A DNA stretch of 35,587 nucleotides. Source: Candidatus Amesbacteria bacterium GW2011_GWC1_47_15 (lineage in GTDB: Bacteria > Patescibacteriota > Microgenomatia > CAZETR01 > Amesbacteraceae). The notes below the pieces were generated by a model. It ran no database searches. It worked only from the letters and a program-made list of their open reading frames with translations, and was not told the origin of the DNA. The stretch spans positions 1 through 35,587 of the forward strand of contig LCNU01000011.1 in NCBI GenBank assembly GCA_001001375.1, written 5' to 3'. The position numbers and the translations under genes were made by a program. Positions 6,440 through 31,970 of this stretch are shown here, one piece after another (position 1 is the first letter of the stretch; each line of letters begins with the position of its first letter).

Positions 6440-8797
6440 ATGGCCTCAAAACAGCATATTAAGACTGTCAGAGAGAGAAACCTTGCCCGGGCGGTCAAGA
6501 CCCTCAAACACTCAAAATTTACATTCCGCTCTCTTTTCTCCTCCCGCATACCTTTTAAATATAAATTTTTCACAGCATCTTTCGGTTTATTGATTCTTAT
6601 AATCGGTATGAGTATCTATTTATTTTGGGGTCTGCCCAATCCTCTCAATCTCACTCGTCACCCTTCGCCCGCATCTACCAAACTTCTGGATCGCCATGGC
6701 AGTTTGATTTATGAAATTTTCGCCGATCAGCGCCGCACTCCAATCAAGCTGGGCACACTCCCGGACTATGTCTGGCAGACTACTATTGCCGCGGAGGACA
6801 GGGATTTTTACAAACACAGCGGTTTTTCTCCGCGTGGTATCGGCCGCGCTTTTATCAGCACTTTTATCCGCCGCAAGGTTCAGGGAGGTTCCACTATTAC
6901 CCAGCAGTTGGTAAAGAAAGCGCTCCTCTCAGATGAAAGGACGCTAAAACGTAAAATCCGCGAGTTCACGCTGAGCGTGGCAGTGGAAATGCTTTATTCC
7001 AAAGATCAGATATTGGAAATGTATTTAAACCAGGTCCCATACGGAGGTACCGCCTATGGTCTGGAATCTGCCGCCCGGACATATTTCGGAATTTCAGGAA
7101 GCGAACTTTCTCTGGCGCAGGCATCTCTGCTTGCCGGTCTGCCGGCCGCCCCCACTTATTATTCCCCTTTCGGTGCCTACCCCGAAAGAGCGGTGGACCG
7201 CCAGAAATATGTCCTCTCCCAAATGCGCGATATTGGTTATATAGATTCCGGGCAGTATGATTCGGCTTTGAAAGAAACCCTGGCCTACACGCCGTCTTCT
7301 ACCATGCTGGCCCCCCATTTTGCCCTTTATGTCAAAGACCTGCTCGTGGATAAATACGGGTTGGAAAAAGTTGAGCAGGGAGGGCTGGTAGTTACCACTT
7401 CCCTGGATTTAGACCTTCAGCAATACGCCCAGGAGGTTGTCGCTTCCGAAACTGCCAAACTGGTCCGCGAAAACGTGCGCAATGGTGCCGCCCTGACTAT
7501 CCACCCGCCTTCAGGTGGAATACTGGCCATGGTTGGATCCAGAGATTATTTCGATACCGGAAACGACGGCAATGTTAATGTGGTTTTAGCCCGACGCCAA
7601 CCCGGATCCGCCATCAAACCGGTCAATTACGCTCTCGGCTTGGAACGCCGTCTTATTACTCCTGCCACTCTTCTGGCGGACAAACCTACATGTTTTTCCC
7701 AGGTAGGACAGAAACCGTATTGTCCCGATAATTACGACAACTCATTTCATGGAGCCACCCAAGTCAGGTTTGCACTCGGAAATTCCTACAACATTCCGGC
7801 TGTCAAAACACTTGTAATAAATGGCCTGACGGATTTCATTAATGCCGCCCCCGCGTTTGGATTGAAGACTTTTAAAGATCCCGACCAGTATGGTCCTTCC
7901 ATCACTTTGGGCGGAGGCGAGGTAACCATGCTTGATCTGGCAACTGCGTATTCCGTCTTTGCCAATGCCGGCAAAAGGGTAGATACTCAGCCGCTTATTT
8001 CCGTCCGGGACCAATCCGGAAATACCCTGGAGTCAATACCTCTAAAGGAAATCTCCCAGGAAGAATACGAAAAGGCGGGTAGATTTGCCCGTATTACCAT
8101 CGGATCCAAAAAATACCTACCCGAAAATCCTCCCAATACCCGGGTAGTCTCGGCCGGTACCGCCTTTCTCATATCTCATATCCTCTATGACAACGGCGCC
8201 CGTTCCACTACTTTTGGTTCGGTATCCCAACTTAATATCAAAAACCATCCCGAAGTCTCCGTCAAAACCGGAACCACCAACGACAAGCGCGATAATTGGA
8301 CCATCGGTTACAACCCGGATATTCTGGTCTCAGTCTGGGTAGGTAACAACGATAACTCTCCCATGAGCAGGGTGGCATCGGGAGTTACCGGCGCTTCTCC
8401 CATCTGGAATAAAATCATGACCCATACTCTTGATGGTAATCCCCAGTCCTGGCCTACCCAGCCGGCCGAAGTAGTGGGAATTTCAGTCTGTTCTACCTCC
8501 GGCCTCCGGGTACCGGAAAACCCTGACGCCGCTTGCTCACCCCGTTTTGAGTACGTTCTTTCCGGTACCCAGCCGCCTTACGACAGCGGAAACCGGCGGG
8601 ATATACATATATATAAACCGACCCAGGGATTGGCAACAGCCAAACAAATTTCTGAAGAACCCGATCAGGTGGAAATGCAAAATCATGCGGTCGTCTTTGA
8701 TGCTCTGGGGACTATGCTGTGTGTGGACTGTGCCGGCGGCGGTTTCGGACAGGACACCATCCGCCTGGACGGCACCGGCAAAGCCATAAAAAACTGA
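6440..8797 (+). CDS. Class A penicillin-binding protein (GT51 + transpeptidase)
   Basis: EDRDFYKHSGFSPRGI, QGGSTITQQLVKKALL, GSAIKP (SxxK), SYN, VKTGTTND. Confidence 0.96.
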   Translation: MASKQHIKTVRERNLARAVKTLKHSKFTFRSLFSSRIPFKYKFFTASFGLLILIIGMSIYLFWGLPNPLNLTRHPSPASTKLLDRHGSLIYEIFADQRRTPIKLGTLPDYVWQTTIAAEDRDFYKHSGFSPRGIGRAFISTFIRRKVQGGSTITQQLVKKALLSDERTLKRKIREFTLSVAVEMLYSKDQILEMYLNQVPYGGTAYGLESAARTYFGISGSELSLAQASLLAGLPAAPTYYSPFGAYPERAVDRQKYVLSQMRDIGYIDSGQYDSALKETLAYTPSSTMLAPHFALYVKDLLVDKYGLEKVEQGGLVVTTSLDLDLQQYAQEVVASETAKLVRENVRNGAALTIHPPSGGILAMVGSRDYFDTGNDGNVNVVLARRQPGSAIKPVNYALGLERRLITPATLLADKPTCFSQVGQKPYCPDNYDNSFHGATQVRFALGNSYNIPAVKTLVINGLTDFINAAPAFGLKTFKDPDQYGPSITLGGGEVTMLDLATAYSVFANAGKRVDTQPLISVRDQSGNTLESIPLKEISQEEYEKAGRFARITIGSKKYLPENPPNTRVVSAGTAFLISHILYDNGARSTTFGSVSQLNIKNHPEVSVKTGTTNDKRDNWTIGYNPDILVSVWVGNNDNSPMSRVASGVTGASPIWNKIMTHTLDGNPQSWPTQPAEVVGISVCSTSGLRVPENPDAACSPRFEYVLSGTQPPYDSGNRRDIHIYKPTQGLATAKQISEEPDQVEMQNHAVVFDALGTMLCVDCAGGGFGQDTIRLDGTGKAIKN

Positions 8798-8882: not shown

Positions 8883-11153
8883 ATGCCGCCTATTAGAATA
8901 TTTAGAAACTTACGCCGTCCCACTCTCCGTAATTTCCTTAAGTCGCTTTACTTCTTAAAACTCTCACTTCACGCTTTCAAACTACCCCGGCTTTCTCTAC
9001 CCGGTCTTCGTCTTTCACCTCCTGTCCGCAGGGCTGTAACGTTTTCCGTACTTTTGACAATTATCCTTTCAAGTCTCTTTACCTATCAATATCTATTCAA
9101 AGATCTGCCCTCCCCTGGCAGCCTATCCTCTCAGGCCCTTCCCCAGACCACTCATATCCGGGATCGCAATGGCACTGAATTGTACAAAATATATTCCGGC
9201 CAAAACCGTACACTGGTCCGGCTGTCGGAAATGCCTCCCTACGTCATCCAGGCTACGCTCAGTATTGAAGACAAGGACTTTTATCACCATCGCGGTTTCT
9301 CCCCCAACGGCATCCTCCGGTCTCTGATCCAGAATATCAAATGCAAAATGACAAATGATAAATGCGTAAATCCCCTTCAAGGGGGATCCACCATTACCCA
9401 GCAGCTGGTCAAGACTGCCCTGCTGTCTCCCGAACGCACCCTGCGACGTAAAATCCGGGAACTGGTCCTCTCACTGGCCGTGGAAAACCGCTATTCCAAG
9501 GATGAAATTTTAGAAATGTATTTAAACCAGGTAGGCTATGGGGGAGCCGCTTATGGTATTGAAGAAGCGGCACAGACTTATTTCAGCAAACCCGCAAAAA
9601 ACTTAAATTTCGCGGAGGCGACACTTTTAGCCGGATTGCCGGCCTCTCCCACTACCTACTCCCCTTTCGGTATCTATCCCGAAAAGGCTATTGCCCGCCA
9701 GCAGGAAGTGCTTCGCCGTATGACAGAAGACGGTCTCATTACCTGGGAACAAGCAGAAGCTACCGCCGCGTATCAATTGAAATTCCGCCCTCCGGTGGGT
9801 AATCTCAAAGCTCCCCATTTTGTCATGTACGTCAAAGATTTGCTGGCCCGTAAATACGGCACCGATATTGTGGAACAGGGAGGACTGGACGTCACCACGT
9901 CCCTGGACTATGAATTGCAGGAGGAAATCGAAAAAATCGTCGCTTCAGAGACGGAAAAAATTGCCAGATTAAACGTAAAAAACGGAGCTGCTCTCGTCAC
10001 TAATCCCGGAACCGGTGAAATTCTGGCCATGGTAGGTTCCCGCGATTATTTCGATCAGGAAAACGATGGCCAGGTAAATGTGACGCTGGCATTACGCCAA
10101 CCGGGATCTTCAATCAAACCGGTCAATTACGCTTTGGCACTCAGCCGGAATTTTAATCCCGCCTCCGTAATAGAAGATTCCCCCGTTACTTACCGTATAC
10201 CGGGCTCCCCTCCCTACACCCCGGTCAATTATGACGGCCGCCTGCACGGCCGGGTTACACTCAGAACCGCCCTCGGATCATCCTACAACATTCCCGCGGT
10301 CAAGTTACTGGCTGCCAACGGAGTGCCGAACATGATAGAGCTCGGGCGCAAAATGGGAATTACTACCTGGGACGAATCCGGCCGGTTCGGTTTATCCCTT
10401 ACTCTTGGAGGAGGTGAAGTAACCATGCTGGATATGTCGGTATTATATGGGGTTTTTGCCAATCAGGGGCAAAGGGTGGATTTACATCCCGTACTTTCGG
10501 TTCGGGACTCCAAAGGCAATTTGCTTGAAAAGTTCAGCTGTCCTGATTCTGATGTTGAAAGCACTTCATGTTCCGGCACTCGTGTGCTGGATCCCTTAGT
10601 GGCTTTTTTGATTTCGGACATCCTCTCGGACAACCGCGCCCGCACCCCCGCTTTCGGACCACGTTCCCAGCTTTATATTCCCGGCTCTCCTGTAGCCGTC
10701 AAGACAGGCACTACCAACAATCTGCGTGACAATTGGACTATTGGCTTTACTCCGGACCACCTCGTTGCAGTCTGGGTGGGAAATAACGACAATACTCCCA
10801 TGAGTTATGTCGCTTCAGGGGTTACAGGTGCATCCCCCATCTGGCGCGCCGTTACGGACCTCCTGCTTAAAAAACTACCCTTTACCGGATTTGCCCCTCC
10901 TGTAGGTTTAAACAAAGTCGCTATTTGCGCACTCACAGGACAACTTTCCTGTTCTGCCTGTCCCACGAGCTATGAATATTTCCTGCCGGGAACGGAACCG
11001 AAATCCGCCTGCAGTGAAGAAACCTTCAAGCACTTGGCTAAAGACGGCAAAGCCAATGTCGACAATCTATTAGAGGGCTTGTCTACCGAATCAGTCACCC
11101 TGCCCACTCCCGTCCGGGGTAACCCTCTTCGCAAACCCAATCGCAGCCGTTAA
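8883..11153 (+). CDS. Class A penicillin-binding protein, tandem paralogue
   Basis: EDKDFYHHRGFSPNGI, QGGSTITQQLVKTALL, SSIKP, SYN, VKTGTTNN. Confidence 0.96.
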   Translation: MPPIRIFRNLRRPTLRNFLKSLYFLKLSLHAFKLPRLSLPGLRLSPPVRRAVTFSVLLTIILSSLFTYQYLFKDLPSPGSLSSQALPQTTHIRDRNGTELYKIYSGQNRTLVRLSEMPPYVIQATLSIEDKDFYHHRGFSPNGILRSLIQNIKCKMTNDKCVNPLQGGSTITQQLVKTALLSPERTLRRKIRELVLSLAVENRYSKDEILEMYLNQVGYGGAAYGIEEAAQTYFSKPAKNLNFAEATLLAGLPASPTTYSPFGIYPEKAIARQQEVLRRMTEDGLITWEQAEATAAYQLKFRPPVGNLKAPHFVMYVKDLLARKYGTDIVEQGGLDVTTSLDYELQEEIEKIVASETEKIARLNVKNGAALVTNPGTGEILAMVGSRDYFDQENDGQVNVTLALRQPGSSIKPVNYALALSRNFNPASVIEDSPVTYRIPGSPPYTPVNYDGRLHGRVTLRTALGSSYNIPAVKLLAANGVPNMIELGRKMGITTWDESGRFGLSLTLGGGEVTMLDMSVLYGVFANQGQRVDLHPVLSVRDSKGNLLEKFSCPDSDVESTSCSGTRVLDPLVAFLISDILSDNRARTPAFGPRSQLYIPGSPVAVKTGTTNNLRDNWTIGFTPDHLVAVWVGNNDNTPMSYVASGVTGASPIWRAVTDLLLKKLPFTGFAPPVGLNKVAICALTGQLSCSACPTSYEYFLPGTEPKSACSEETFKHLAKDGKANVDNLLEGLSTESVTLPTPVRGNPLRKPNRSR

Positions 11154-16767: not shown

Positions 16768-16936
16768 CTGCGTCGTAAATATGTTTTTGAACTAGCTTAC
16801 GCAACCCGCCACTGGTAAATTATTTGAATGCGAATATTTTGGCGGGTGAGTATGCAAATAACGCTTGGGAAAAATACGTCGGAATTCCCCCAAACGAAAG
16901 CGATTATTGGTAGTGAAAAAATATATTAAGACGCAG
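16768..16936. ncRNA. Structured repeat element, copy A (three-way junction; strand undetermined)
   Basis: Outer arms 16768-16794 / 16911-16936; core hairpin 16795-16810 / 16841-16855; second hairpin 16857-16866 / 16898-16908; homologous to copies B and C. Confidence 0.65.
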
Positions 16937-16940
16937 AAAA

Positions 16941-17708
16941 TTAAAAAATTATCCCTGCTATTTTCCTGGCTAATTCCACTGGTTTCTCCGCCTGCCAGAT
17001 ATTCCGTCCCACAGCCCATCCTATAGCCCCTGCCTCTAGAATTTCCCCCGTTTTTCTTAAGAAAGTTTCCTCATCTGTTTTGCTTCCCCCCACCGCCAGC
17101 ACTTTCACTTTCCCGGCAGCCGCCACTACCCACTTCATAGACTCCACGTCCCCCGTATATGCCACCTTCACCATATCTGCACCCAATTCCAAAGCAATCC
17201 GGGCTGCATATGCCAGATTTTCTTTGCTGTGTTCATTTTCACCGATATGTTTGCCCCTCGGATACGCCCACAATATTACCGGCAGCCCTGCGTCATGCGC
17301 TTCCTCCTGAATTCTGGAAAATTCGGCAATACTCTCTCCTTCTCTCTCGCTTCCCACATATATCGTATAGCCCACCCCTGCCGCCCCCAGTTCCACAGCT
17401 TCTTCTACACTGCAGTTTTGGGGAGAAAAAAGTTCCTCCCCCGAATGATATCCTGTCTTGCCGTTAAGCTTTACCACTAAGGGCGTCTTATACACACCTT
17501 TCCGGTAATACTTTTCCGCCACTCCTTTTTGCACTGCAATACAGGTAAACGCATCGGACTGTTCCGCAATATCAAACACATACTGCGGGTCAATCGCTTG
17601 CCCTGAGCCCGCCGAAGGGTTGAAATCGGTAGGCCCATGCTCAAACCCATGATCGTAAGCCAGCAAAAGCGCTCTCCCGTTTCTGGTTATTTTGGAAAGA
17701 TCCACCAT
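16941..17708 (-). CDS. Class I fructose-bisphosphate aldolase, DhnA/archaeal type
   Basis: LLLAYDHGFEHGPTDFN; MVKVAYTGD Schiff-base Lys region; carries an NPSAGSGQA insertion. Confidence 0.92.
   Translation of the reverse strand: MVDLSKITRNGRALLLAYDHGFEHGPTDFNPSAGSGQAIDPQYVFDIAEQSDAFTCIAVQKGVAEKYYRKGVYKTPLVVKLNGKTGYHSGEELFSPQNCSVEEAVELGAAGVGYTIYVGSEREGESIAEFSRIQEEAHDAGLPVILWAYPRGKHIGENEHSKENLAYAARIALELGADMVKVAYTGDVESMKWVVAAAGKVKVLAVGGSKTDEETFLRKTGEILEAGAIGWAVGRNIWQAEKPVELARKIAGIIF
17594..17621 (-). repeat. In-frame short repeat insertion encoding NPSAGSGQA in the aldolase
   Basis: CCTTCGGCGGGCTCAGGGCAAGCG with CCCT/AGGG self-complementarity; peptide interrupts an otherwise conserved region. 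Confidence 0.6.
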
Positions 17709-28513: not shown

Positions 28514-28584
28514 AAAATAGGTTCTAACACCTGCCTGCAGGTTTACCCGCCGGCAGGAGAGCAGACAGGAAGTTTACCAGTTAC
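28514..28584. repeat. 71-bp direct repeat, left copy
   Basis: 67/71 identical to 29366-29436. Confidence 0.9.
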
Positions 28585-28636: not shown

Positions 28637-29017
28637 CTAATTTGGATATAAAGACAAATGTGCAATCTGGGCAAAATGGCTAATGTTGAGCGTAACCAAT
28701 GTGGCGTTCAATTCTATAGCTGAGGCAGCAATTATGTAATCGGGAGCACCAAGGTTTTTATTCATATCTCGGAATAACTCACCGGCGCGCCTGGCTATTC
28801 CTTCCGTTAGCTCAACTTTTTGGAAAAAGCTAAGAAATTCGTTAATTTTTTTTGCAATTTCTGGTTTTGAGGTGCTTTTACCGGAAAACAATTCAAAAAT
28901 CACGATAGTGGGAAGATATAATTCAGTGTCTTTTTCTAACCTGCCCAACAACTCTTCCCATTTCATCCCCCCTCTCAGATAATCTATAAGGATACTAGTA
29001 TCTATTACTAGCTTCAT
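28637..29017 (-). CDS. VapC-type PIN-domain toxin
   Basis: MKLVIDTSILIDYLRGG; LGAPDYIIAASAIELNATLVTLNISHF. Confidence 0.92.
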   Translation of the reverse strand: MKLVIDTSILIDYLRGGMKWEELLGRLEKDTELYLPTIVIFELFSGKSTSKPEIAKKINEFLSFFQKVELTEGIARRAGELFRDMNKNLGAPDYIIAASAIELNATLVTLNISHFAQIAHLSLYPN

Positions 29018-29283
29018 AATTCCTTATCCCACTGCCCTAAAAAGTCGGAAGCACCCGTTCTCCTAAGGGGATTATCCTCAAAACTATAATCTCTTAAGAT
29101 ACCTCTAACTTTTTGGCTTGCTCTTAATAAATCGTTCCAATTAATCTTTGATGTTTTGGGAATCATTAAGGCTACTTCCTTATTATCTTTCACTATGACT
29201 ACTTCTGCTCCCAGGGCAATTTTATTTAAGAGTTCAAAAAAATTATTTCTTGCTGATGTTGCTGACAATCTAATCGTGCTCAT
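29014..29283 (-). CDS. Phd/YefM-type antitoxin
   Basis: SATSARNNFFELLNKIALGAEVVIVKDNKEVALMIP; 4-nt overlap with toxin. Confidence 0.88.
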   Translation of the reverse strand: MSTIRLSATSARNNFFELLNKIALGAEVVIVKDNKEVALMIPKTSKINWNDLLRASQKVRGILRDYSFEDNPLRRTGASDFLGQWDKEL

Positions 29284-29365: not shown

Positions 29366-29436
29366 AAAATAAGTTCCAACACCTGCCTGCCGGTTTACCC
29401 GCCGGCAGGAGAGCAGGCAGGAAGTTTACCAGTTAC
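29366..29436. repeat. 71-bp direct repeat, right copy
   Basis: 67/71 identical to 28514-28584; internal CCTGCCGG/CCGGCAGG hairpin. Confidence 0.9.
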
Positions 29437-29468
29437 TATCTCAATCCCCACTCTTGATCGTAGCTGAC

Positions 29469-29608
29469 AGGCAGCAGGTTGCCTTTTCGTGCAGCTTACG
29501 CAGCCCCGCCCAGGTATATTTTTTTATTTCTCGGTTTTTGGCGGGGTGAGTATGCAGATAATGCCGGGGGTAAAACTTGAAACATAAAGAAAGAGCAGCC
29601 TGCTGCCT
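29469..29608. ncRNA. Structured repeat element, copy C (strand undetermined)
   Basis: Outer arms AGGCAGCAGGTTGC / GCAGCCTGCTGCCT; core GCTTACGCAGCCCCGCC / GGCGGGGTGAGTATGC. Confidence 0.6.
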
Positions 29609-29615
29609 AAAACCA

Positions 29616-31696: not shown

Positions 31697-31741
31697 TTAA
31701 ATAATACTACATTTCATACCCGGTCGCATAAAGGAGTTGTG

Positions 31742-31895
31742 GATATATTTTTTCACTAGCTTACGCAACCCCGCCCGGTATAAATATTAAAATGACAAAG
31801 GTATTTGGCGGGGTGAGTATGCAGGTAACATCAGGAACAAATGCGCATTATTACGTATAAACAGCAGATGATTACCGATAGTGAAAAAATATATC
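31742..31895. ncRNA. Structured repeat element, copy B (three-way junction; strand undetermined)
   Basis: 17-bp perfect outer inverted repeat 31742-31758 / 31879-31895; core hairpin 31759-31775 / 31807-31822; second hairpin 31824-31832 / 31867-31876. Confidence 0.7.
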
Positions 31896-31970
31896 GAGAC
31901 GCCTGAATTACCTGTCCGGCAACAACGTAAATCATGCGGTTGCCAATAGTTGCTGTAAAATCACAAGTGG

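Follow-up and report, generated by a model that had tools for sequence, protein, structure and literature searches.

A branched palindromic repeat is described here from a 35,587-nucleotide (nt) stretch of Candidatus Amesbacteria bacterium GW2011_GWC1_47_15 DNA, referred to below as the window, which corresponds to contig C11 of a 914 kb genome in 52 contigs (G000). The repeat is about 160 nt long and occurs three times in the window (copies A, B and C), with copy B the one under study. Its pairs covary across 29 copies from six families of Patescibacteria, it is inserted at sites that are empty in relatives, it tends to lie just past stop codons in one orientation, and its helices show little preference for G-U over A-C mismatches. 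Tentatively, we read these properties as those of a new family of low-copy mobile repeats in Patescibacteria that may work as one folded DNA strand.

Fold, covariation and distribution

Nearly all copies consist of an outer helix and two hairpins, arranged from the outside in, on the + strand of the window, as outer helix, hairpin 1, a single A and hairpin 2. The outer helix has roughly 15-30 pairs in which a T-tract faces an A-tract, with tandem G-A loops in family f17; hairpin 1 has one mismatch, either U-U or C-A, and an internal loop with G-N-A opposite G-A, and hairpin 2 carries a bulged A. Copies A, B and C lie where a preliminary description of the window had placed them, and all fold better than dinucleotide shuffles (z = -4.8, -7.1 and -2.5, respectively). 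Their finer details are likewise present as described: the 17 bp outer helix of B, CTGCGTC/GACGCAG in A, a second helix with a bulged A in both of these copies, and the change in stem length between CCCGCC and CCCCGCC. Copy C has the different closing helix reported for it (29469-29482 / 29595-29608), which comprises 13 Watson-Crick pairs and one G-U. The three-way junction proposed earlier is found in nearly all copies and not in C, because the 3' arm of its hairpin 2 is missing; the preliminary description, too, could not pair the second helix there.

The family was assembled with covariance models, as the preliminary description had suggested. BLAST gave three copies in a genome of the same family (G013), a first model of six copies (R1) added five from that family and two from family f17, a further copy was found beside one of the latter, and rebuilding twice (R2, R3) led to the final set. 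This holds 29 copies from 15 genomes, 26 more than the three in the window. Two of these are diverged copies on contig C4 of the same genome that had been missed by BLAST, so that the genome total is five and not three. The searches covered class and phylum samples of Patescibacteria, mostly draft assemblies with one genome per species; genes were called as simple open reading frames (ORFs) except where Pfam was run, and neighbouring genes were mostly named by eye. Occurrence is scattered, with carriers making up 10 of the 385 class genomes and 5 of the 389 genomes sampled across the phylum (1.3-2.6%) and holding 1-5 copies each; by family, 4 of 14 genomes are carriers in f1 and 5 of 52 in f17. 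The genome is closely related to Candidatus Amesbacteria and other Microgenomates, which belong to the Patescibacteria (the candidate phyla radiation), and a 22-base core pattern matches two Amesbacteria genomes and one Microgenomates genome. The closest relatives among the 29 copies are only about 50-75% identical.

Covariation within this set is very strong. Across the 29 copies 95.4% of cells are paired, and 22 of the 23 inner pairs show two-sided compensatory change, a figure reached in none of 500 shuffles. Cells with two-sided change number 187, against 48 in shuffles and 19-32 in slid structures, with a covariation score of 0.77 against 0.22. Fitting the alignments to the model biases them towards the structure; slid and swapped controls nonetheless fall far off. 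RNAalifold independently gave the same fold from 14 copies, and in 18 of 24 copies the outer-helix arms pair with each other above the 95th centile of combinations in which arms were exchanged among copies. The earlier statement that only structure is conserved does not extend to the unpaired bases: the G and A of the G-N-A loop, the A of the opposing G-A and the junction A are present in 29/29 copies, and the G of G-A in 28/29. The + strand gives the more stable fold with RNA as well as DNA parameters, the latter in 25/29 copies.

No named family had been recognised previously, and Rfam gave no match at the gathering threshold; at E <= 10, run on 13 copies, it returned just a separate tRNA and a chance match elsewhere in the loci. 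A known RNA family was rejected on these grounds, and known RNA/DNA modules, k-turn and SECIS among them, were looked at by eye only and also set aside. Of the outcomes that would have spoken against the preliminary description (no further copies, no covariation, a match to Rfam or to an IS end), none occurred. An origin in phages or plasmids was rejected, as no similar DNA was found in them; two viral-contig patterns had no matches, and a third had a single match that reached 12.9 bits with the model, which is chance level.

Insertion, wobble pairs and the functional strand

Judged from empty sites in related genomes, the element is an insertion. Such sites, which the preliminary description had proposed to look for, were found at three loci. 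The gap between fba and a pfkB-type kinase gene is 212 nt where copy A is present and, by alignment, -2, -2, 0, 0, 39, 42, 59 and 81 nt in eight relatives. In family f17, recA and recX are 0-15 nt apart in many relatives without a copy, against 176-192 nt in the two that have one there. In G013 one copy lies inside tgt, where the open frame runs across it as a segment of about 54 residues; the other tgt genes of the family can be aligned to either side of the insert yet all lack that stretch, and the full-length protein with the insert is still matched by Pfam as TGT. The same Tgt loop in the window's own genome (L038, contig C15) contains an unrelated in-frame palindrome, CCCCCTCCTAAACTAGGAGGGGG, and looks like a recurrent landing place. 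Orthology was rejected both for the two recA-recX copies and for two copies that precede amylase-type genes, as sequence groups neither pair; because of this, shared sites may be either independent insertions or fast-diverging orthologues.

When every locus is turned so that the element reads +, a - strand gene ends with its stop codon 7-71 nt to the right of 22 copies (21 counted directly, and the G180 recA-recX copy by subtraction). The resulting orientation bias is 22:1 (sign test, p = 6e-6; p = 2e-5 with two shared loci counted once), the single mirror-orientation copy (G002; region L071 2278-3153) following a tyrosine recombinase gene (Phage_integrase, Pfam E = 1e-29). Three of the other six copies, including B, lie between divergent genes, one lies within tgt, and no stop is close to the remaining two. 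Distances to the next gene start vary widely and two copies sit between convergent genes, so the preceding stop is the anchor. Genes adjoining the copies are unrelated to each other. A sugar-pathway riboswitch, prompted by PfkB, PGK, TPI and transketolase beside copies in f1 genomes, was therefore rejected: other copies adjoin nrdR, recA, clpC, nrd, dinB, rluD, a glycogen-synthase gene and others. Pairs of neighbouring copies were also noted. On contig C1 of G180 (L075, 3833-4393) two same-oriented copies flank an ORF of 86 amino acids (aa) with no Pfam match, and on contig C4 of the window's own genome copies are similarly arranged around pth and a transporter-like gene.

Mismatches in the helices bear on which nucleic acid is folded. 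Read on the + strand, the inner helices contain 540 Watson-Crick, 13 G-U and 7 A-C pairs; the gene-sense strand therefore has 7 G-U and 13 A-C. Control tRNAs from the same loci have 192 Watson-Crick, 12 G-U and no A-C pairs. Unlike in these tRNAs, G-U is hardly commoner than A-C, and the pairing therefore seems to be kept at the DNA level. Of the two possibilities first raised, a structured RNA or a mobile element recognised as single-stranded DNA, the scarce G-U preference and the insertional history favour the second, short of proof.

If so, the template strand of the preceding gene would turn single-stranded during replication, supercoil-driven extrusion or DNA uptake, and the freed strand would fold into the outer helix and two hairpins at a three-way junction. 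This folded strand may be the recognised form, with a putative protein reading both its shape and the fixed unpaired bases (the G-N-A/G-A loop and the junction A). That protein, a putative recombinase or HUH-type nuclease, would move, or would once have moved, the element to sites just past stop codons in a fixed orientation. A bolder version, which we regard as improbable, would have Patescibacteria possess a recombination or transposition system that is not related to integrons and recognises the three-way-junction fold of the template strand as its site. As the site sits behind genes, same-oriented neighbouring copies could then be cassette borders, the pairs in G180 and on C4 being examples.

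Several observations weigh against a mobile element that acts as folded DNA. No transposase, recombinase or nuclease linked to the element was found, and no partner protein. Y1 transposases do not separate carriers from non-carriers: Y1_Tnp occurs in 10/12 carriers and in most f1 non-carriers and is absent from carriers G268 and G471, and within the window's own genome the Y1 genes are on contigs C3, C17 and C22 and the copies on C4 and C11. Copies in the same genome are too diverged for recent movement, and the post-stop rule is broken by B and six other copies. Few events and a small set of control tRNAs underlie the G-U argument, and a functional RNA could lose G-U intermediates too if its palindromes were repaired by template switching. 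An RNA function would also be compatible with the way the copies are placed and oriented with respect to genes. A link to RAYT/Y1 transposases was not supported, no clear correlation having been seen. The Y1 transposases themselves are about 220-260 aa long, a RAYT-like size, with <=8 matches per genome, and are common in f1 (40 genomes searched).

An RNA role near gene ends is possible. It would take the form of a cis-acting mRNA element past the stop codon, at the 3' end or between cistrons, that stabilises or processes the transcript or controls the next gene, with the gene-sense strand (the reverse complement) as the functional one. The consistent 7-71 nt spacing with its 22:1 orientation, the strong covariation and the good folding of the sense strand (z = -5.8 for B) would all agree with such an element. 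We nevertheless consider it rather unlikely, as A-C exceeds G-U by 13:7 on that strand against 0:12 in the tRNAs, a comparison by which a gene-sense-strand RNA is disfavoured (p = 0.0004). The sense strand is also the less stable fold, preceding and following genes are unrelated, and one copy lies inside tgt. An intrinsic terminator was rejected in its own right, the pattern being absent at A and B and present at C only as a weak 5-pair match overlapping the closing helix.

Relic miniature transposable elements without present function, their arms kept complementary by template-switch repair from each other, would account for the insertion sites, the patchy distribution, the frequent two-sided changes without a G-U excess and the existence of a degraded copy (C). 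This is less probable still, since the fixed mismatches (G-N-A/G-A, the bulged A and the junction A) should then be repaired too, yet are kept in 29 copies. Least likely of all is a trans-acting small RNA read along the + strand, against the direction of the genes nearby: that strand has the more stable fold, G-A loops typical of structured RNA and slightly more G-U than A-C (13:7), but its G-U pairs are still few for an RNA, which weakly disfavours it (p = 0.03 against the tRNAs), promoter-like matches around copies are near chance level, and several copies per genome occupy unrelated sites.

Copies in the window and their surroundings

Coordinates of the three copies and their parts are listed in Table 1. 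Copy A is located between fba (stop 16941) and the pfkB-family kinase gene (start 16729), both on the - strand, and copy C directly past the stop codon of pgk (29616, - strand). Copy B occupies a divergent region with an SDR gene (start 31696, -) on one side and a + strand gene (31971) on the other.

Table 1. Positions of the repeat copies and their structural parts in the window
Feature	Position	Strand	Description
Copy A	16770..16934	+	outer helix, hairpin 1, hairpin 2; covariance-model core 16794-16913, 93 bits
Hairpin 1 of A	16795..16855	+	GC-U-UAC-GCA-ACCCGCC...GGCGGGU-GA-GUA-U-GC
Hairpin 2 of A	16857..16909	+	AATAACGCT.../...AGCG-A-TTATT
Copy C	29465..29615	+	hairpin 1 intact, hairpin 2 without 3' arm; covariance-model core 29493-29602, 63 bits
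Hairpin 1 of C	29494..29555	+	
Copy B (under study)	31734..31902	+	outer helix, hairpin 1, hairpin 2; covariance-model core 31758-31881, 101 bits
Outer helix of B, 5' arm	31742..31758	+	T-tract, present in most copies
Hairpin 1 of B	31759..31822	+	invariant internal loop GCA/GA
Hairpin 2 of B	31824..31876	+	GGTAACATC.../...GATG-A-TTACC
Outer helix of B, 3' arm	31879..31895	+	A-tract matching the T-tract of the 5' arm

Other repeats are found in the window. A 71-nt direct repeat (28514-28584 and 29366-29436; 94% identical), with many CCTGCC/GGCAGG palindromes, lies on both sides of a two-gene unit at 28637-29283 that looks like a VapB/VapC-type toxin-antitoxin pair, as if it were a mobile cassette. 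The aldolase gene reads ...FNPSAGSGQAID... at about 17590-17630 (- strand), apparently a short repeat translated in frame, and an ORF of L072 contains an SLPAGRQV stretch resembling it. Two adjacent large ORFs (6440-8797 and 8883-11153; 785 and 756 aa) look like tandemly duplicated penicillin-binding-protein genes and share DNA blocks of 70-83% identity.

Comparison with known systems

Most Patescibacteria are uncultured, and little is known of the mobile elements they carry. A repeat that is absent from Rfam and occurs in at least six families of the phylum comes with a covariance model ready for surveys, and offers a concrete substrate for finding a partner protein that could reveal a new DNA-hairpin-based genetic system.

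The attC sites of integrons stand behind a gene in a fixed orientation. They are imperfect palindromes conserved in shape over letters, whose bottom strand is folded and recognised and whose unpaired bases set the choice of strand (PMC8946536). The element is likewise a shape-conserved imperfect palindrome behind genes with the template strand as the better folder, and an attC-like layout is seen both in its orientation (22 versus 1) and in the greater stability of the + strand, the template of the preceding gene (25/29). Membership was rejected because the R boxes are absent: R'' (RYYYAAC) has one left match and R' (GTTRRRY) one right match, and no copy has both (0/29). In contrast to attC, the element forms single sites behind housekeeping genes and has a three-way junction near a conserved loop. 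The loci read show no cassette array (no genome-wide search for intI was made), the nearest arrangement being the pair flanking the 86-aa ORF at G180:C1.

The REP and the GTAG- and CGTC-tagged palindromes moved by RAYT transposases are interspersed, often downstream of or inside ORFs, and have been proposed to be miniature transposons (PMC3733652). The element shares this interspersed palindromic character and location. REPs, however, are hairpins of 20-40 bp that lie beside a tetranucleotide tag and flank a RAYT gene; many copies are often present, and G-T pairs are frequent in them, whereas the element is about 160 nt, branched, present in 1-5 copies, and lacks both a constant tag in the aligned flanks and a G-U preference. 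Rickettsia palindromic elements (RPE) are about 150 bp, palindromic, and can occupy in-frame positions within a protein gene (PMC10969869), and the element is of similar size and palindromic with one copy in frame in a gene. RPE carry a conserved peptide ORF and are frequently inserted in frame within genes; only 1/29 copies of the element is intragenic and open frames are not common to the copies.

Like the end hairpins of IS200/IS605 and their miniature inverted-repeat transposable elements (MITEs), which a Y1 transposase mobilises, the element would fold as single-stranded hairpins with fixed unpaired bases. Unlike IS200/IS605, its copies carry no Y1 transposase and form one closed three-way structure rather than separate left and right end hairpins. 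On defining features, no clear agreement with attC, REP/RAYT, RPE or IS200 was seen, and the element is therefore filed under none of them. Should it indeed act as a folded DNA strand, single-stranded DNA elements recognised by their structure would extend beyond integrons and the REP/IS200 systems.
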